From Phyllobacterium lublinensis (GTDB lineage Bacteria > Pseudomonadota > Alphaproteobacteria > Rhizobiales > Rhizobiaceae), in assembly GCF_020164435.1 (NCBI RefSeq), contig NZ_JAIUDQ010000002.1, forward strand, positions 62,001-126,000: 64,000 bases of DNA, read 5' to 3'. The stretch's first letter is position 1; each line of letters starts with the position of its first letter. A program made the position numbers and the translations under genes. This document shows positions 47,589 through 55,869 of this stretch, piece by piece. A model generated the notes under the pieces. It saw only the letters and a list, made by a program, of their open reading frames with translations, ran no database searches and was not told where the DNA came from.

Positions 47589-48458
47589 TCAGGCTACGCC
47601 TTCCAGCATGTGGCGGAAGCGCGCCGCATCATATCGCGTTGCCATGTGCGGTGCTGGCTCAGGAACGCGGCCGATATCGTCGGCGGAAGTAAATTGCTGG
47701 GAGAACACGACCGCCTCGGTTCGGTTTGTAGCGTTTAGTTTCCGCATGATATGCGAGATGTGGACCTTGATCGTGTTCTCCGAGAGATCAAGTTCACTGG
47801 CGATGATCTTGTTTGGAAGGCCCCGCCGCAGCGTTGCCAATACCTGCCTTTCACGCTCGGTGAATGCAATTTTCGATTTCTTTGTCATGACTGGCGTTTC
47901 ATCCGGCGCTTGGTTGGCGACCGGCATTGGCAGCGCGCTGATTGTAATAGGCGAAGGCAGGGGATCCGATTGCGTACCAGTGTCGATGGCCATGGACCGT
48001 GGGTAATAGGCTCCACCTGCCAGAATGAGGCGGATGGCGGCAAGGACGACCTCGACCTGCGCAGTGTTGGTCGTATAACCTTTGACACCCAAACGGGCGA
48101 CCTCGGATACAATCGCATCGGTAATCGATGCCTCATCAAGTTGGGTCAAAACCATGAGCGGTGTCTCGGGCCGCACTTGGTGAATGTAGGCAAGATTCAA
48201 CGAAACCCACTCATCGGTCAGGTTTCGGTATCCTATGTTCAATATTGCGAGATTGATCGATTTCTCGATGATGCCGCCCAATCCGTCCGATGTGGCAATG
48301 TCGTAGATGGCGACATCTGGAAGGTCCCTTTGCAGGGCCCGAATGAGACAACTCCGCGACAAAGCCTGGCAATCGATGATGGCAATTGAAGTGCGCTCGC
48401 TGGCAATGCTACGCATATCATTGAAGCCGTGTACGTCGGCAGCAAATGAAACTGACAT
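47589..48458 (-). CDS. LuxR-family regulator with degenerate receiver domain (first)
   Basis: A 289-residue regulator. Residues about 20-150 resemble a response-regulator receiver, but the phosphoacceptor position reads LAILNIG with Asn74 instead of Asp, so phosphorylation is unlikely. A LuxR/FixJ HTH follows (about 205-262; FTERERQVLATLRRG, SENTIKVHISHIMRKL). ATG 48458 behind AGGGGGA is chosen over the open frame to 48572. A conserved tandem-repeat block lies 113 bp upstream. Paralogous in plan to the regulator at 49244. Confidence 0.85.
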   Translation of the reverse strand: MSVSFAADVHGFNDMRSIASERTSIAIIDCQALSRSCLIRALQRDLPDVAIYDIATSDGLGGIIEKSINLAILNIGYRNLTDEWVSLNLAYIHQVRPETPLMVLTQLDEASITDAIVSEVARLGVKGYTTNTAQVEVVLAAIRLILAGGAYYPRSMAIDTGTQSDPLPSPITISALPMPVANQAPDETPVMTKKSKIAFTERERQVLATLRRGLPNKIIASELDLSENTIKVHISHIMRKLNATNRTEAVVFSQQFTSADDIGRVPEPAPHMATRYDAARFRHMLEGVA

Positions 48459-48570
48459 AAATCCCCCTACGCTTTCCCAATGACTCTTGCAACGCGCCGA
48501 AAAACGGCCGGCTTCCAGCTTCTGCTGCATGGGCGACATCGCTCTCCATGCCAAAGCATCTGAGGAAACC

Positions 48571-48612
48571 ATACAGGCCGCCTGTCACGCCAACGTGAAA
48601 CCAACGTGAATG
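48571..48612 (-). promoter_or_regulatory. Tandem-repeat regulatory block 1 (SARP-type site)
   Basis: On the minus strand two TTCACGTTGG units start 11 bp apart (plus-strand positions 48601-48610 and 48590-48599), followed by TGACAGGCGGCCTGTAT. The 42-bp block is identical at 36 positions to 55591-55632. It precedes the LuxR-type gene at 47589-48458. Confidence 0.7.
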
Positions 48613-48627
48613 GGAGAAAAAAGTCCG

Positions 48628-49062
48628 CTAGGTTTCTATCGCCGTCGCGGTATCAACCACTACGAAGTCATGGGTAATCGTGGCGGTCTTGGCCAACATC
48701 GCTGATGCCGAGCAGTATTTTTCAATTGACAGTGCGATGGCACGCTCGACCTTGTTGGTGGCCAGACCGCGTCCTTTGACGATGAAATGCATGTGAATGC
48801 GTACAAAAACCTTCGGATCCTGCTCCGCCCGGTCGGCGTCGATCTCGACAACGCAGTCCTCGACCGCCTCACGAGATTTTTCAAGGATGTGAACGACATC
48901 GAAAGCCGAACATCCCCCAGTGCCAATAAGTACCAGCTCCATGGGGCTTGGTCCTGGTGTTCGTCCGTCGGGCCCGAAGGCTGTTCCGAGTACAACATTA
49001 TGGCCGCTTCCGGACTCGCCGATAAAGGTTCGATCTTCCACCCATTTGATACGTGCTTTCAT
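48628..49062 (-). CDS. OsmC/Ohr-family protein (YhfA-like)
   Basis: A 144-residue OsmC-fold protein. The two redox Cys are Cys51 (TGGCSAFDV) and Cys117 (EKYCSASAM), placed as in peroxide-reducing relatives. Closest in pattern to the YhfA group, whose substrates are not well known; peroxide or disulfide metabolism is likely. AAGGAAG precedes the ATG. Its transcription may run into the block upstream of the LuxR gene. Confidence 0.88.
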   Translation of the reverse strand: MKARIKWVEDRTFIGESGSGHNVVLGTAFGPDGRTPGPSPMELVLIGTGGCSAFDVVHILEKSREAVEDCVVEIDADRAEQDPKVFVRIHMHFIVKGRGLATNKVERAIALSIEKYCSASAMLAKTATITHDFVVVDTATAIET

Positions 49063-49157
49063 CAGATTCTTCCTTTGGTCGATATGCGACCACCATAAAT
49101 CAGAGGAGGTTGCTGATGTCCAAGCATTTGGCCGCTGGAGTTTCGAGTGCAGGGATC

Positions 49158-49186
49158 AAAAAAATCCCTCCCTGTAGAAGGGAGGG
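49158..49186 (-). terminator. Rho-independent terminator of the second LuxR gene
   Basis: Minus strand CCCTCCC and GGGAGGG arms (49166-49172 and 49180-49186) with a seven-base loop, followed by ATTTTTTTG. It ends transcription about 58 bp after the LuxR-type gene at 49244. Confidence 0.85.
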
Positions 49187-49243
49187 TAGAAGGGTGGGGC
49201 GGTCCCCATCGCCCCAAAGGCGTCTTGTTTGTGAAACGACGCT

Positions 49244-49993
49244 CTAGATCACTTCGTCGAACATGGCGTTTATCTTATAGATCGCTTCTGCCCGATTTGT
49301 TGCGTGTATCTTCTTCAATATGTTCCTGACGTGAACCTTCACCGTGTTTGGTGCCAGTTTGAGCGCATAGGCAATTATCTTGTTGGCCTTCCCCTGCCTC
49401 AGAACCTTGATGACGTCCTGTTCCCGCGGCGTGAACATGTCCCAGCGGTCGGATTGGGGGCGTTTTACCCCGAGAACGCGTTGAATATCATGCAAGCTTT
49501 CGGCAGCCAGGAAAACACCGCCGGCCAACGCCATCGATATGGCTTCGATGCACACGGAAATTCCGGCATTACCAGGAAGATAGCCACGCGCACCGTGCTC
49601 GAGAACGTTTAGAATCTGCGGGGATCCGCACAATTCGGCTTGAACGATGACCGGTATATCCGGAAACCGGCGGACGAGCGCCTCGATTTCGAGCATGATG
49701 GAATCAGCCATGCCGTCGTCGATGCTTACAAGTATCACCGAGAACTCGTTGGCTTCGTATTCTTCAATATCCTCCATGGTACCGTAAGTGACCATGCGCA
49801 GGCCAAGTCCATTCGAAACCAGCCCCCATGAAAGGCGTTGTCGAGCAACGTCACGTCGCTCAATTATGGCAAGCGTGCGCTGTGGAAGCAGTTCTGTGGA
49901 TGCGATGCGGAACTCTGCGCGGCGGGCTGCCGCGTGCCGATTGAAAACGGCATGGCCTGCATCCGGTATTCTTTCGTACACGATTCCTGACAT
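49244..49993 (-). CDS. LuxR-family regulator with degenerate receiver domain (second)
   Basis: A 249-residue regulator: receiver-like part (about 38-160) in which the phosphoacceptor position is Ser90 (VILVSIDDG), then a LuxR/FixJ HTH (about 185-245; FTPREQDVIKVLRQG, APNTVKVHVRNILKKIHATNR). The HTH resembles that of the gene at 47589. ATG 49993 follows GGGGGTAAG; the frame to 50035 is longer but unsupported. Last gene behind two small unknown genes on the same strand. Confidence 0.85.
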   Translation of the reverse strand: MSGIVYERIPDAGHAVFNRHAAARRAEFRIASTELLPQRTLAIIERRDVARQRLSWGLVSNGLGLRMVTYGTMEDIEEYEANEFSVILVSIDDGMADSIMLEIEALVRRFPDIPVIVQAELCGSPQILNVLEHGARGYLPGNAGISVCIEAISMALAGGVFLAAESLHDIQRVLGVKRPQSDRWDMFTPREQDVIKVLRQGKANKIIAYALKLAPNTVKVHVRNILKKIHATNRAEAIYKINAMFDEVI

Positions 49994-50038
49994 TTTCTTA
50001 CCCCCATAAACGTGCTCACAAATGCACGCTCGCACTAT

Positions 50039-50401
50039 TCAATGGCACCAAGTTTGATCGCCGTGTTTCCTCGCCCGGCTTATGCGGGCCATGCGCTCTG
50101 TTAAGAGGCGCATTGCTGCGCAAGAGAGTTCGATACGGTCTCTCTTCTTTTGCAAGGCACCGATATCAGTCAGCCGTTGAACCGTTTGGCCGTCAATTTG
50201 CCGAACGGGATCACCGTGTAACAGACGTTTCAATGCTTCCCATTCCTCAAGTGAAAGTTCACTCATCAAAACCATTTCCATCGAGCTCCAGTCCAGACTG
50301 TCAGACAAGTTGTCTGGCAGAAGTTGCAGATAAACCCGCCGTCGTGTGACTTTCGTCAGTTTTGGGCGGCCACATTTGTTTGATCCAGCCAACGTGCTCA
50401 T
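50039..50401 (-). CDS. Small unknown protein, upstream partner of the second LuxR gene
   Basis: A 120-residue basic protein with a helical stretch LSLEEWEALKRLLHGDPVRQI and VQRLTDIGALQKKRDRIEL, suggestive of a winged-helix-like fold but not assignable. Start overlaps the stop of the next upstream frame (ATGA), and 45 bp separate its stop from the LuxR gene, so the three form one unit. Confidence 0.6.
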   Translation of the reverse strand: MSTLAGSNKCGRPKLTKVTRRRVYLQLLPDNLSDSLDWSSMEMVLMSELSLEEWEALKRLLHGDPVRQIDGQTVQRLTDIGALQKKRDRIELSCAAMRLLTERMARISRARKHGDQTWCH

Positions 50402-50634
50402 AGATCAGAGCTGCCTTGCCAGCTTCGCTGCTTGCCGGATTTCAAGTTATTGTCATTGCTTGGAATCGGTATTAAAGCCGGCCTGTGCAATGGCGCCAGG
50501 ATGGAAGAAATATAAACACTGACCTGTCGTTCCATTGTTGCTTTGAAAAAGTTTCCATGACTACGCAAGCCAAGGGAATGCTTCAGCTTCTGGATCAATT
50601 TGGCCAGTGATGGGCGGGTATGAACGGTTGACAT
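50398..50634 (-). CDS. Small unknown protein, first gene of the LuxR2 unit
   Basis: A 78-residue protein from ATG 50634 (GGAG nine bases before). Basic N-terminal half with SLAKLIQKLKHSLGL, then a Pro/Ile-rich middle. The frame continues upstream to 50754, but that would start inside the tandem-repeat block, so the inner start is preferred. Its stop overlaps the next gene. No family recognised. Confidence 0.5.
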   Translation of the reverse strand: MSTVHTRPSLAKLIQKLKHSLGLRSHGNFFKATMERQVSVYISSILAPLHRPALIPIPSNDNNLKSGKQRSWQGSSDL

Positions 50635-50745
50635 TGTCTCGACTCCAGTTGGTGCAAATCCAAAGACCGGTTCTAATCTCCGCAGGTCGGAACCCCGGTG
50701 TATTTGTTGGATATTACTGGAGCAGGCGTCTCGCGAGCGCTGCCT

Positions 50746-50765
50746 CACCGTCAACGCACCGTCAA
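50746..50765 (-). promoter_or_regulatory. Tandem-repeat regulatory block 2 (SARP-type site)
   Basis: On the minus strand TTGACGGTG occurs twice with an 11-bp period (plus-strand CACCGTCAA at 50746-50754 and 50757-50765). It fits the TT(C/G)ACGnTG pattern of the blocks at 48571 and 55591 but lacks the ACAGG/CCTGT part. It lies about 110 bp before the first gene of the LuxR2 unit. Confidence 0.6.
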
Positions 50766-50780
50766 AAATGAAGAGCAGAA

Positions 50781-50815
50781 CGCAAAAAAGGGCCCGCGGG
50801 GAGCCCTTTTTTGCG
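50781..50815. terminator. Bidirectional terminator after the subtilase gene
   Basis: CGCAAAAAAGGGC and GCCCTTTTTTGCG are perfect 13-bp arms around a nine-base loop; T-runs arise in both directions. It ends the SARP-PAP2-subtilase operon 20 bp after the subtilase stop. Confidence 0.9.
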
Positions 50816-50834
50816 CGTTTAGTTTGCTGTCACT

Positions 50835-52535
50835 TCAAATCTTCAGGACAGTACCCACGGCTGTGGCTGCATTGAGCAACCCCGCTCCAAAAAAATACCT
50901 GGGATCGATGACATCTTCGTTGTCCGCATTCATACAGTCGGGGGTGAGGGGACGAAGACCCGGTCCAACAGTGCTGTTTTGGCTGGACGCTTCCTCAAGG
51001 ATAGCCTTCACAGCTACACCGTCTAGTTTGGCCGATCCCCCGTGAACGGCACGGTGCGCTCGCTGGACAAGAGCAGCAACGCCACCGACCAAGGCTGCGG
51101 CTCCGGACGTACCGCCAAAGCTCGTATAGTAACCACCGCCAACGCCGGGATTGTTTGCAGAGGGGAGAAGTGATGACCAAGGCGCCTTTCCCTCATCATA
51201 ACCAAAAACGCCGGGAAGGTCCGTACTCAGAAGACTGAAGTGGGAATAACAATATTCCTTCCCGGTATCGGCATTGTATTGGTGCTTGGCGGTGAAGGGA
51301 GACAGACGATTGATCCGCAATTGATGGCGATTGAATACCTCGCCATCGTCAGAGGGTGCAACGAGAGTGAGACCTTCGCCGTAATTGCTGTAGCCGGATC
51401 GGAAACCTTCAACTGTTACTGCGCCGACCGCGACAATACCATTATCTGGAGCTGCGAGGCTCGCCGGGTAGATCAACTGGCTTTCACCGCTGTTGCCGGC
51501 AGCGCAGATCACCGGGATCTTGCGGCTCACGGCAATGATCAGATGTTTGAGGATCTTCCAAATACGGTCCGGGTTGGAACCGGGCTGTGTTGCCTTTGGT
51601 TCAAGCTCTACTGGCCCCTGTTCTGCCACCGCGAGACGGGCAAACAGGTCCGCAGCATCACGATTTGCCCAGCGCTCCAGGTCAGCCTTCAATTCGTTCT
51701 TGGGTTGCATGGCGCTACGCTTCGGATCGGGTATGCCTCGGGGCATAACGATGACGTCAACGTTCTGTGAATATGCATAAAGGAATGCAGCAATGAACTG
51801 CACAGCATCCTCCTCGAACGAAGTCGTGATGTTGACGAGGCGCGAAAAAGGATCAGCGCCAAAATACGGCAATAAATTGGGATTCTTGTTGGGAAAGGTC
51901 CCTGTCGAATCTGGATTCGTGAAGATATATTCTGGTGGAGCCGGGACTTTGCCGTCCTCCGCCGGCAGGGCAGCGGGCTCGGCCACAATCAGACCGGCGC
52001 AGGCTGTGCCGTGCGATGCGAACATCGTGTTGGAGTCGAGAATACGGCGTAATACTCCTTGGGAGACCGCATATTCTGCCACGATATCGTCCAGGTAATC
52101 CTTGTCATCAACCGATAGCCCGAGGTTTCCGAGTCCGGATATGTCAAGTTCAGCGAAGAAGGCCTGTTTCTCCTCCTTGTAGGTACTGTCTGTCTCGTCG
52201 AGAATTTCCGCCGCTCGCGCACCATATTTGTGCGTCGACAAATCGATCGAAGCGCCATGATCGATCCGTGTCGTCAGGTTCGGGTGATCTGGTGATATCC
52301 CAACGTCGATCAGTGCCACTCTTGCGGGTGAGATTGCCCCCACGCCGGCAATGGTATCCCAGACCGAACCGGAAATGACCGGAGACGACGTGGTACGCAA
52401 CGCGCTCTCGTTATTGGGGGGTATCGGATTTTTCGAGGTTCCGAAGTCGGCGGTAATTACTCCCAAAGCAGCCAAATGCCAGAGGTAATAATAGCCGGCA
52501 GGCGCAGGCTGTGTGTTGTCCGGTTGAAGGGCCAT
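50835..52535 (-). CDS. Subtilisin-family (S8) serine protease without signal peptide
   Basis: A 566-residue protease. Catalytic Asp77 (ALIDVGI), His175 (ASHGTACAG), oxyanion Asn348 (CAAGNSG) and Ser477 (GGTSGAAAL) are all present, so it should be active. There is no signal peptide, propeptide or membrane anchor, so it appears cytoplasmic or exported by an unknown route. A large insert separates Asp and His. ATG 52535 behind GAGG is preferred over the frame to 52547. Third gene of the SARP operon, before a terminator. Confidence 0.88.
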   Translation of the reverse strand: MALQPDNTQPAPAGYYYLWHLAALGVITADFGTSKNPIPPNNESALRTTSSPVISGSVWDTIAGVGAISPARVALIDVGISPDHPNLTTRIDHGASIDLSTHKYGARAAEILDETDSTYKEEKQAFFAELDISGLGNLGLSVDDKDYLDDIVAEYAVSQGVLRRILDSNTMFASHGTACAGLIVAEPAALPAEDGKVPAPPEYIFTNPDSTGTFPNKNPNLLPYFGADPFSRLVNITTSFEEDAVQFIAAFLYAYSQNVDVIVMPRGIPDPKRSAMQPKNELKADLERWANRDAADLFARLAVAEQGPVELEPKATQPGSNPDRIWKILKHLIIAVSRKIPVICAAGNSGESQLIYPASLAAPDNGIVAVGAVTVEGFRSGYSNYGEGLTLVAPSDDGEVFNRHQLRINRLSPFTAKHQYNADTGKEYCYSHFSLLSTDLPGVFGYDEGKAPWSSLLPSANNPGVGGGYYTSFGGTSGAAALVGGVAALVQRAHRAVHGGSAKLDGVAVKAILEEASSQNSTVGPGLRPLTPDCMNADNEDVIDPRYFFGAGLLNAATAVGTVLKI

Positions 52536-52585
52536 TTGTAACCTCATTTACGCTAGAGGAACCACTGAAGACAAATGCAATGGCT

Positions 52586-53515
52586 TCACACCCATTCCTT
52601 GTGCACTGCGTTATATGTCGCAGCGAACGCATCTCGCAGATAAGGAGCAAACCGCCGAGCCAGCTCACGCCCACCCTTCGTGTCGCTCGGATAATGGAGA
52701 CCTGCCCATTCCCGATTTTCTGCAACATTCTGGGCAATGCGAGACAACTCTTCGGTTGCGGGATGCTCGGGAAGGATCGTGTTGAAAGCAAATGCAATGG
52801 AAAAGCATTGGAATGCGTGATTGCTGTGGAAAGACTCGTGAGCTGGAACGGCGAGAAGCGGACGTAGCCGAGGCTCGAACTGACTGGGTCGCAACCGATT
52901 GAACTTGTTCTTGTAAATAAGGCCGACATACTCGCACGCTGTCAGGATATTCTGGAAAAGCCCCTCGGTCTGTTCGAACCCGGCTATGTTCTCAATATAG
53001 AGAGGCCGCGTGAACTCGGCGACAGACAGCGAGGCCTCCTGTTGAATATCCGGGAGTCGTCTGGCCCGTTCGCGGTCACGCTTTTGCATTGACAGCATCA
53101 CCTTGGTTTCAAGACGGGTGAAGTCGGGTCCGGGTGGTGGAGTAATGTCGAGCATTTCCCACGTGAACCGCGCGGCCGCTGTAAAGGCGTTGCGGGAGGG
53201 TTGCTGGTGCAGACGGCGTAATTGAAACGCAGGTATCAATTGTGCATTGCCAGGGCTTATTCCACCGAACGAACTTTTATTCTTGTTTTTGTTCTTGTTC
53301 AGGGATGACTTGTTCATGACCGTTTTGTTGGCAACGCCGCCACTCGCCAGAGCGGCTCCGGCCTCCGGCACTTCGGGGCTGACGATACCGGCTCCGTCTG
53401 TCGTCCGCGTGGTGAATGGCAAGGGAGGGCAAGGCGACACGTTGTCCGCGTCGACCTCAAATCGAAAACTGTTCAAGAATCGTATCAGCGGTGATTGGGG
53501 AGCAACCTTGACCAT
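52586..53515 (-). CDS. PAP2/vanadium-haloperoxidase-fold protein
   Basis: A 309-residue soluble protein. The C-terminal half has the three motifs of acid phosphatase/vanadium haloperoxidases: KNKFNRLRP (202-210), ESFHSNH (227-233) and REWAGLHYPSD (268-278, Arg, catalytic His274 and Asp278). No transmembrane segments, unlike lipid phosphatases, so nearer to haloperoxidase or class A phosphatase relatives. The first 110 residues are low-complexity, with an NKNKNKNK run (73-80). Lies 50 bp before the subtilase gene. Confidence 0.82.
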   Translation of the reverse strand: MVKVAPQSPLIRFLNSFRFEVDADNVSPCPPLPFTTRTTDGAGIVSPEVPEAGAALASGGVANKTVMNKSSLNKNKNKNKSSFGGISPGNAQLIPAFQLRRLHQQPSRNAFTAAARFTWEMLDITPPPGPDFTRLETKVMLSMQKRDRERARRLPDIQQEASLSVAEFTRPLYIENIAGFEQTEGLFQNILTACEYVGLIYKNKFNRLRPSQFEPRLRPLLAVPAHESFHSNHAFQCFSIAFAFNTILPEHPATEELSRIAQNVAENREWAGLHYPSDTKGGRELARRFAPYLRDAFAATYNAVHKEWV

Positions 53516-53559
53516 TTCGCATGTCCTTCATCTATTCGAGCCGAATATTGTTGAGGAAA

Positions 53560-55398
53560 CTATCGGAGCTTGACGCCGGCTTTCGTAAGCCCGGCGATCA
53601 GCATCTTGCCCCCGCCGGTCTGAAGCAGCGGGTAGCGATTGTCCTGGAGGGATTCGATCGAGAAATTCGGTTCGACTGTCTCAAGTCGCTCCACGCACTT
53701 TCTTGCCAAGTCCATCTCGTCGCGATGCGCGTGGCTCGCTGCCAGGTAACGCAACAGAGAATTGAAATCCGGCCGCATCTTCAGGGCCTCTTCGCCTGCA
53801 GAAATCGCTGCGGCATGGTCGCCGGCAAGAGCGGCGCTGATGCACTTGGTTGTATCGAAATAATATTTGTGTGGGCTGTAAAATCCCAGATTCTGAACCC
53901 AGTTCGCCATGGCCATGGCTTTCTCGGGCTGCCCGGCATAGCAGTGCAGCATGGAATAGAGATCCCAGCCGAGTGGTTGGGCGGGGTTGAGCCTTATGGC
54001 TCTCTCGAACAATCCGGCGGCATAGTCGTATTCGCAGAACAGGAACGAATGGACGTGTCCAACGAGGGCAAGCGCCACGGAATTGTTCACATCCAACTCC
54101 AATGCCTTGCGGGCGTAGAATTGGGCTTCCTCGACTATCGTTGCATCATAGGCATTGAAACGTTGCCCCACCCGGAACGTTCGTATGAAGGCGAGCCACG
54201 CGTAAACCGAGGAGGAAGGCCGGTTGGCGGCAATTTTATGAAGAATGCGCTCCGCCCTGTCGAGATCGTCCCTGGAAAGTCGGAAGACCGAGTTGACCGC
54301 TTCGATCATGGTGGTTTCCCGCTCCCAGTTTCCTCCTTCGCCGCTGAAAAGAAAGCAACCGTGAACTTCATCAATCAGGTGATTGATCAAACCGTGCAAC
54401 TGATTGGCTTCACCTCGTTCCAGATATAGCCGATCAGCGATGCAACTGTCTTTCCAGACCAGGCTGTGATCCGCCAACCGCAACACGCTGACCACGACAA
54501 GGACAGTCTGGCTGGAGAGTGTCAGTTCCAGCTGTATGCCGATGGGCGTTGCCAAGGAGATATCGCTGCTACCAGGGTTGCCACCATGCACGTCCGTCCA
54601 ACCTCCTCCCCCGAACGAGAAGTCGGTAACGCGGATATCAGTCCCCTCGACGAGTGTTTTCTCGATGAGATTCAATATTCCCGACGCCAGGATCGGGCCA
54701 TTTTCGCTTTGTCCAGCTATGCGGGGCGGTAGGATCGCAACGACCCATTGCCGCGAACCAATACTGGTAATTGAGCCAGGGGAGGACGATGCGTCGTCCG
54801 TTTCTCCGGACGCCGTTCTCTCATCGTCTTGGACCCGTTTACTTGCCGTCAAAGGAACGAGAGACGTCTGCCCCCGGCGTTCACGCGAGAGCTCGAGCTT
54901 TGGTTCGATTCTATGCTGTATCTGACCCTCGTCATAACGGCGCTGCCACACCTGTCGCTCAAGCGTCAGCCATTCCTCGAATTCGGGATCTCTGACGTCG
55001 ACACCTTCGAGAAAATGTTCGGCGGCCGCTTCATCATCGCCTGCAGCGTGGCCACCAGCAAGGATTTCGTCAATATCCAGCCGTACCCGGTCCATGCGAA
55101 GCGATACCGTATTCTTGTCAGCCACCAGGATATCGCGTGCATCACCTAGGCACTTCCTGATATCGAGCAATGCCTGACGCAGACTGGCGGAGGCCTGATC
55201 TTCAGGGCGGTCGCTCCAAAGTTTGTCGCGGAGCCAGACCCGCGAACGGGATCCCCGCAGGGAAAGAGCCAGCATGGCAAGAATGGCTTGAGACTTTTGG
55301 GACTTTGGCGTCAGAGTCCTTCCCGACGGATCGGTGATCGCGAAGGGTCCGATAAGATACATGCGATAGGCCGCTTCGTGCTGCTGACTGCCGTCCAT
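53560..55398 (-). CDS. SARP-like regulator: winged helix, BTAD-like and TPR domains
   Basis: About 612 residues from ATG 55398. The N-terminus (about 10-110) is an OmpR-type winged helix of SARP kind (LIGPFAITDPSGRTLTPKSQ, SASLRQALLDIRK), followed by a short linker, a middle domain (about 205-330) and C-terminal TPR-like helices (about 375-580; AQFYARKALELDVNNSVAL, GLFERAIRLNPAQPLGW). SARPs bind direct repeats with 11-bp period, as found at three promoters nearby. The frame is open to 55608, so starts at 55506 or 55608 remain possible. Heads an operon with PAP2 and subtilase. Confidence 0.8.
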   Translation of the reverse strand: MDGSQQHEAAYRMYLIGPFAITDPSGRTLTPKSQKSQAILAMLALSLRGSRSRVWLRDKLWSDRPEDQASASLRQALLDIRKCLGDARDILVADKNTVSLRMDRVRLDIDEILAGGHAAGDDEAAAEHFLEGVDVRDPEFEEWLTLERQVWQRRYDEGQIQHRIEPKLELSRERRGQTSLVPLTASKRVQDDERTASGETDDASSSPGSITSIGSRQWVVAILPPRIAGQSENGPILASGILNLIEKTLVEGTDIRVTDFSFGGGGWTDVHGGNPGSSDISLATPIGIQLELTLSSQTVLVVVSVLRLADHSLVWKDSCIADRLYLERGEANQLHGLINHLIDEVHGCFLFSGEGGNWERETTMIEAVNSVFRLSRDDLDRAERILHKIAANRPSSSVYAWLAFIRTFRVGQRFNAYDATIVEEAQFYARKALELDVNNSVALALVGHVHSFLFCEYDYAAGLFERAIRLNPAQPLGWDLYSMLHCYAGQPEKAMAMANWVQNLGFYSPHKYYFDTTKCISAALAGDHAAAISAGEEALKMRPDFNSLLRYLAASHAHRDEMDLARKCVERLETVEPNFSIESLQDNRYPLLQTGGGKMLIAGLTKAGVKLR

Positions 55399-55869
55399 TA
55401 CGGTGAGCCCCGGAGTAGCGTTGCGGGTTTCTTTATCTTTCTTAAAATCAGCCTCTTGCACCAAGTTTGGCACAAAACACAACTTTAGCAATATGTCTGA
55501 GGGCATTGGGAGCCGCAGACCATAACCAGGAACGCCCATTTCCGAAAGAACGTGCACAATTCCGCTCCCATTTTTGACGCTTGTCCTGAAATACAGGGCG
55601 CCTGTCATTCCAGCGTGAAAACATCGTGAATGACGGGAAAAAAAGAAACAGATGCATTATCCCTTCGATATGCCTATCCGCGAGAGGAACCGAGCAGGCC
55701 AATGAGCGCAGGATCATTCCGGCACAGGCGTGCTTCGATCCATTGACCCGTCCAATTGCAGGCATCCGAGAACAACTCGAAATGCCGGCTCCAATCCATA
55801 GAGCCGATCAGGATTGCGGCAGAACTCCCGGGCTCGAGCCGGATGCCCGAACCAGGGTAGCTTGGAATT
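55399..55869. other. Promoter region of the SARP operon
   Basis: A 471-bp stretch (261 bp if the longest SARP frame is used) containing the conserved block at 55591-55632. The remainder up to the end of the small exported protein gene shows no gene. Confidence 0.5.
55591..55632 (-). promoter_or_regulatory. Tandem-repeat regulatory block 3 (SARP-type site)
   Basis: On the minus strand TTCACGATGT and TTCACGCTGG start 11 bp apart (plus-strand 55621-55630 and 55610-55619), followed by TGACAGGCGCCCTGTAT. It matches the block at 48571-48612 in 36 of 42 positions without gaps. Being upstream of the SARP gene, it suggests autoregulation. Confidence 0.7.

Follow-up and report, generated by a model that had tools for sequence, protein, structure and literature searches.

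Tandem repeats of 11-bp period as candidate operators of a SARP-like regulator in Phyllobacterium lublinensis and its relatives

SARPs have been studied as activators of antibiotic clusters in actinomycetes. A gene for a SARP-like protein is present in a 64,000-nucleotide stretch of the alphaproteobacterium Phyllobacterium lublinensis (the window; contig NZ_JAIUDQ010000002.1, positions 62,001 to 126,000), and the minus strand of this window carries three TT(C/G)ACGnTG pairs whose period is exactly 11 bp, at 48590-48610 (site A), 50746-50765 (site B) and 55611-55630 (site C). The locus raises the question of whether these repeats are read by a dedicated regulator and, if so, by which one. An original prediction, made from the letters alone, had named the SARP gene as the likely reader, linking three transcription units in one small network. 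We consider it likely that sites A, B and C are operators of this SARP-like winged-helix/TPR regulator, which would autoregulate and activate both units that encode LuxR-type proteins; the identity of the reader and its binding to the sites are what we infer from the comparisons below.

On the minus strand the genes follow in the order SARP-like regulator, PAP2-superfamily protein and S8 subtilase; orf118, orf120 and LuxR263; OsmC; and finally LuxR327. Site C precedes the SARP-PAP2-S8 unit, site B the orf118-orf120-LuxR263 unit and site A the LuxR327 gene. Site C (55590..55632, minus strand) consists of the pair TTCACGATG/TTCACGCTG, whose extent is 55611-55630 instead of the 55610-55630 given earlier, a third unit, ATGACAG, and a -10-like TGTATT at about 55590-55595 (minus strand). 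Site A (48570..48612, minus strand) holds two copies of TTCACGTTG, a third unit, GTGACAG, at about 48582-48588 and a -10-like TGTATG at about 48570-48575 (both on the minus strand), and its core is also found upstream of the LuxR327 copies in two other genomes, G122 (C86) and G137 (C3). In site B (50725..50765, minus strand) two copies of TTGACGGTG are accompanied by a degenerate unit, (G)AGACGCC, 33 bp further on. When recomputed, the 42-bp blocks around site A (48571-48612) and site C (55591-55632) were identical at 36 of 42 bases, the figure previously claimed. The ACAGG/CCTGT arms described in these blocks are present but do not form a palindrome that orthologues conserve: the left one belongs to the 11-bp series as its third unit (TGACAG), while the right one varies among orthologues and overlaps the -10-like TGTAT/TATAT, and a palindromic operator was rejected. 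Placement of the sites upstream of a LuxR gene, of a three-gene unit ending in a LuxR gene and of the SARP-TPR gene held, with the starts of the open reading frames (ORFs) shifted inward. The ORF starts at 48572 and 55608 adjoin or fall inside the repeats, and the points from which homology begins suggest true starts at about 48458 and 55398, so that the sites would lie approximately 110-230 bp upstream of the coding regions.

Such pairs are rare in the genome. The exact pattern TTSACGNTGNNTTSACGNTG (TTSACGNTG-N2-TTSACGNTG) occurs three times in the Phyllobacterium assembly (4.53 Mb, 88% complete), and the three occurrences are sites A, B and C. An order-1 Markov model with the composition of the window gives an expectation of 0.00023 in the window and 0.016 genome-wide, and the whole-genome scan put forward as a check on chance occurrence returned three matches for 0.016 expected. 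With one mismatch allowed, a single further match appeared in the assembly, C40:222092. This match overlaps the end of the coding sequence of the gene preceding a LuxR paralogue, where it encodes that gene's C-terminus, and its counterparts in other copies of the paralogue show three (G137 C1, G122 C44) or five (G125, G131) mismatches. Given the coding overlap and the weak or absent counterparts, it was rejected as a fourth site and is probably a coincidence.

The repeats recur upstream of orthologues of the SARP-like gene, the second check that had been proposed. Our comparison covered 76 loci with SARP-like relatives, drawn from the best 80 of 170 candidates in one scan of genome contigs and totalling 1.52 Mb; the best named relatives of the protein come from four Phyllobacterium species (82-85%). 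The pattern with at most one mismatch matched 30 times in these loci and the reversed pattern not once. Twenty-five matches, spread over 24 loci, precede the start of the SARP core by 216-261 bp, and the remaining five are at +4620 to +4650 (four matches) and at -3074 (one match) from that start. A blind spacing test, in which T.ACG was sought twice at spacings of 6 to 23 within 350 bp before the gene, was applied to 77 loci (the 76 and the window) grouped into 33 sequence clusters at 75% identity. Spacing 11 was found in 63/77 loci (21.5/33 clusters after weighting); the next-best spacing, 22, was found in 6 loci and every other spacing in at most 4. At the 11-bp spacing, T.ACG ranked first of 256 cores built in this way, with the runner-up at 6.0 clusters. 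Triple units, with overlapping starts counted, numbered 44 in the 76 loci, against 1 for the reversed pattern and 0, 0, 1 and 0 for spacings of 9, 10, 12 and 13. Eighteen of these 44 lie outside the SARP promoter window; ten Rhizobium loci are among them, with positions (+4620 to +4659) that correspond to site B. Overall, a repeat at this position (approximately +4620 to +4660, counted from the start of the SARP core) is found in other Phyllobacterium, in two Pseudorhizobium, one of which (L084) has four units in phase there, and, as a variant sequence, in the ten Rhizobium loci. In Rhizobium johnstonii pRL12 (L066, 14700-17224), the sole Rhizobium locus whose genes behind this position were inspected, it precedes an uncharacterised 527-aa gene and a ThiF/E1-like gene instead of LuxR263; the position after the subtilase has thus persisted through at least one change in the genes behind it. 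The half-site also varies with the recognition helix, CTAACG occurring with R-S-S-T/N and TTSACG with Q-A-S/A-A-S, a pattern that looks like one clade and was not used as proof.

The geometry of many of these sites resembles that of a promoter. In 42 of the 63 loci with the 11-bp pair, the distance from the T of the last unit to [CGT]TA is exactly 13 bp, and other offsets from 6 to 33 account for 0-4 loci each, save offset 32 with 15. The fixed -10-like spacing, as judged from the sequences, characterises the Rhizobiales-type clusters and does not extend to the set as a whole. Counted from the first T of TTNACG, the heptamer lies 7-8 bp from the -10-like element. In published SARP promoters the repeats are spaced by 11 or 22 bp, and 8 bp separate the 3' repeat from the -10 element; in the afs box, the upstream repeat overlaps the -35 element (PMC10936776).

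Within the genus, the sites track the presence of the SARP-like gene, which was detected in 9 of 20 Phyllobacterium genomes (E 1e-30). Exact sites were found in 7/9 genomes with the gene and 0/11 without it (Fisher p 0.0005). Orthologues of LuxR263 (at least 66% identity) exist in 12 genomes, and site B, with 0-3 mismatches, precedes them in 9/9 genomes with the SARP-like gene and 0/3 without it (p 0.0045), the best matches within 1500 bp in the latter having 4-5 mismatches. Site A, with 0-1 mismatches, accompanies three of eight LuxR327 copies (G000 C12, G122 C86 and G137 C3); the other five copies stand beside another gene and gave no convincing site (1, 3, 3, 5 and 5 mismatches). Other Phyllobacterium genomes also contain the target units of the three-unit network originally suggested.

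What kind of protein, then, is the proposed reader? The gene (53560..55398, minus strand) encodes a 612-aa core, with the ORF open to 55608 and a predicted start at 55398. Its product is predicted to comprise an OmpR-type winged helix, short BTAD-like helices, a linker, a CadC-like alpha/beta part and TPR. Sequence searches gave faint likeness to SARPs: AfsR was the best weak match in NCBIfam (E 3.5e-6 over residues 72-182 of the long ORF, and well under the curated cut-off), phmmer returned AfsR at E 0.003 and EmbR at E 0.035, and a sequence profile of the winged helix-turn-helix (wHTH) matched AfsR and EmbR at E 0.0003-0.002, with ToxR equally good. AlphaFold2 models were obtained with mean pLDDT of 80.7 and 86.4. 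When the N-terminal model was compared with the PDB, AfsR and EmbR chains took the first six places (E 1.1e-5 to 3.5e-4), the AfsR matches (8hvr, 8k60) spanning 170-181 columns of the 165-residue model, which indicates that the predicted fold is nearest AfsR and EmbR and that the winged helix is of the SARP kind. After the winged helix the model has few helices up to about residue 158, followed by a low-confidence linker. In a Foldseek search with the full model, the CadC periplasmic domain ranked 2, 4, 6 and 9 among many TPR proteins (E 5.5e-6 to 3.9e-5, TMt 0.36-0.41, rmsd 17-19); a second structure search with the full model listed 50 matches filled by TPR chains, and the absence of SARP and CadC chains among those 50 excludes nothing. 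Pfam recognised Trans_reg_C in 5/42 members of the family and BTAD in 0/42 at E 0.01. The label SARP in the original prediction is thus partly borne out, by the N-terminal fold, and we call the protein SARP-like and not a full SARP: it is atypical, with a short BTAD-like part and a putative CadC-like/TPR sensor half.

Comparison with known systems suggests how such a regulator may act. AfsR of Streptomyces shares with it the N-terminal fold, and the afs box consists of two 11-bp direct repeats over the -35 element and spacer at a short fixed distance from the -10 element (PMC10936776). In contrast to AfsR, the regulator here has a short BTAD unrecognised by Pfam and a CadC-like middle part instead of NOD; its repeats have a T-N-ACG core, it occurs mostly in alphaproteobacteria, and its proposed targets are its own operon and LuxR units. 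A second parallel is PimR, a Streptomyces SARP-LAL that binds three heptamer repeats of 11-bp period before the LuxR-type gene pimM in a SARP-over-LuxR cascade, requires at least two units for binding and has another operator, in which a 3-nt spacer separates two repeats (PMC5930380). PimR differs in its half-site, CGGCAAG, in its membership of an antibiotic cluster and in having an operator that does not overlap the -35 element. CadC/ToxR-type one-component regulators likewise have a winged helix followed by an alpha/beta and TPR-like half, and ToxR matches the wHTH profile, whereas the N-terminal model fits AfsR and EmbR better. We found no account of SARP-type regulators or of this operator in Alphaproteobacteria in the open-licence literature, which is weak evidence of absence.

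Starting from what was observed directly (the repeats, their positions and conservation, the fixed -10-like distance in Rhizobiales-type clusters and the co-occurrence of the genes), we propose a model in which binding, activation instead of repression, the cascade and the entry of the signal are the conjectural steps. Monomers of the regulator would bind side by side on two to four successive 11-bp units with the T-N-ACG core, and the bound units would overlap the -35 region and the spacer between the -35 and -10 elements. The bound monomers may then recruit RNA polymerase, as published for AfsR. Recruitment to the promoter of the SARP-PAP2-S8 subtilase operon would amount to positive autoregulation, and recruitment to the two LuxR-encoding units would create a small cascade with two LuxR outputs, as with PimR above pimM. 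The signal would presumably enter through the CadC-like/TPR half.

Similar sites occur beyond close relatives. A scan of 394 family genomes found the exact pattern 15 times, in 10 genomes, and the reversed control not at all. Ten of the 15 matches lie within approximately 6 kb of a SARP-family gene, and one precedes LuxR327 in G122. Four of the ten adjoin distant homologues, of which those in G080, G183 and G376 are 33-35% identical in the N-terminus; the two distant homologues examined (L231 and L234) carry a Pfam BTAD, and L234 also has TPR above the cut-off. The exact sites precede genes for animal-type haem peroxidases by 43 bp (L234), approximately 560 bp (L231) and approximately 800 bp (L232), and in L232 a site also lies 46 bp before an S8 subtilase gene. 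Another branch thus couples this sequence to targets of a similar kind. As for the operon in the window, relatives of its PAP2 and S8 genes are both present beside the SARP-like gene at 59 of the 76 named loci, several of the 17 without the full trio being cut by contig ends, and the trio spans Phyllobacterium, Rhizobium, Neorhizobium and Aminobacter to Roseovarius and other Rhodobacterales.

Several observations weigh against the SARP-like protein as the dedicated reader. With a degenerate pattern, a genome-wide search of six genomes gave no consistent excess over the reversed control. One mismatch blurs the contrast within the genus, with matches in 9/9 genomes that have the SARP-like gene and also in 4/11 that lack it (Fisher 0.0047), and with 38 matches in the 20 genomes for 7 of the reversed control. 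The LuxR263 orthologues of genomes without the gene sit in other surroundings, so the co-occurrence of site B is an association, not proof. Fourteen of the 77 loci had no 11-bp pair upstream of the SARP-like gene (L084, L085, L086, L093, L094, L098, L102, L105, L107, L110, L111, L112, L115 and L120); they include both Pseudorhizobium, L085, which was counted as a miss with only 211 bp upstream present, and L102, where the pair is present in antisense. After cluster weighting, the [CGT]TA at offset 13 accounts for just 5.8 of 21.5 and the runner-up, offset 31, for 4.0, and this weighting and the Fisher tests only partly remove shared ancestry. Four of the 15 exact matches in the family (L233, L235, L236 and L237) have no SARP-family gene in the fetched stretch, the genome of L233 carrying one on another contig. 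Finally, among 14 further SARP-like paralogues, that is, those of 30 loci with a match over the winged helix once the own locus, the G047 orthologue and 14 TPR-only loci were excluded, the 11-bp pair stood upstream in three (one sense, two antisense) and a 22-bp antisense pair in three, one of them shared with the 11-bp set. Repeating the test with tblastn match positions gave the same outcome (L046 has only approximately 130 bp upstream). A repeat rule for every SARP-like wHTH-TPR protein is not supported, 11/14 paralogues being without the 11-bp pair.

How do other explanations fare? Tandem repeats of 11-bp period are also bound by other OmpR-type regulators such as PhoB and CtrA, a further point against our assignment, and the wHTH profile fits ToxR about as well as AfsR; a different winged-helix regulator of the OmpR/PhoB type, for example a two-component response regulator, might read the sites and have the SARP-like gene merely as one target. 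We regard this as unlikely, since the sites track the SARP-like gene within the genus and adjoin SARP-family genes in other genera, and a general regulator should have distant targets, for which the assembly offers no exact site. It would be very surprising if the repeats were simply -35 elements of strong promoters without a dedicated reader. TTGACG does resemble the sigma-70 -35 hexamer, and a -10-like CTA/GTA stands at a fixed distance in many loci, but many units read TTCACG, CTAACG or ATAACG, two to four units are kept at exactly 11 bp while their sequence changes, the association is with SARP genes, and a sigma-70 consensus scan, with counts at shuffle level, listed no such promoter at sites A, B and C. 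Equally improbable is that the likeness of sites A and C, at 36/42 positions, reflects recent copying of a promoter segment without shared regulation. Compared over 48 bp in three genomes, the LuxR327 sites share 40, 37 and 43 positions with one another and 36, 36 and 38 positions with the SARP site from the same genome, and the core is kept in both groups; any copying is therefore old, and the repeat core has been maintained. Regulation by the SARP-like protein is accordingly the interpretation that we retain, random-frequency and conservation tests both being favourable to it, and the repeat system is probably a real, undescribed control circuit.

The remaining genes and some side observations complete the description of the locus. 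The second gene of the SARP operon (52586..53515, minus strand) encodes the PAP2-superfamily protein, whose Pfam match falls just under the curated cut-off and which contains an NKNKNK tract; the third (50835..52547, minus strand) encodes the S8 subtilase-family protein. Between the subtilase gene and site B, at about 50783-50812, an A6-GGGC...GCCC-T6 hairpin is visible by eye; the scan picked up a portion of this hairpin, and only on the plus strand. The site-B unit comprises orf118 (50398..50634; frame open to 50754, with 50634 the presumed start) and orf120 (50039..50401), both with no assigned function, and LuxR263 (49244..50035), a GerE-type regulator and the last gene of the unit. LuxR327 (47589..48458), the proposed target of site A, is also GerE-type, and its ORF is open to 48572 with a conserved ATG at 48458; all four lie on the minus strand. 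Elsewhere (G000:C40; L004 436-2971), a gene whose 348-aa product is rich in DQD-like repeats stands before another LuxR327 paralogue (72-74% identical), and the gene next along resembles, by eye, a secretion adaptor. A defence-system label was rejected: LuxR263 and LuxR327 match only PADLOC CARF3 models, over stretches of approximately 50 residues in the GerE region, and the SARP, PAP2 and S8 proteins had no PADLOC match at E 0.001. PADLOC compares the ThiF/E1-like gene of L066 with E1-E2 proteins, and the genome of L066 has three identical copies of TTCACGTCGTCTTCACGCTG (G139: C1, C5 and C6), perhaps within a repeated element. At L231 a YcaO gene adjoins the SARP-family regulator. An Arenicella metagenome-assembled genome (L106) shows TTAACG repeats of 11-bp period before its SARP-like gene and again 6.5 kb on, where genes have P450, DyP-peroxidase and radical-SAM matches.

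Taken more broadly, and only tentatively, the data may point to a widespread family of SARP/CadC hybrids in Alphaproteobacteria and at least some gammaproteobacteria. With the operator code (T-N-ACG-N6)2-4, it would control a module of subtilase and peroxidase type (PAP2 in one branch, haem peroxidases in another), with LuxR enlisted in some lineages, and would represent an undescribed system with its effector module. If the regulation proposed here is true, SARP promoter logic, with 11-bp tandem operators over the -35 element and spacer, would run a conserved circuit in rhizobia and their relatives, including a SARP-over-LuxR cascade resembling PimR-PimM. It would also provide a concrete operator with which the genes controlled by uncharacterised regulators could be recognised from sequence, and a way into the function of the conserved SARP-PAP2-subtilase cluster.

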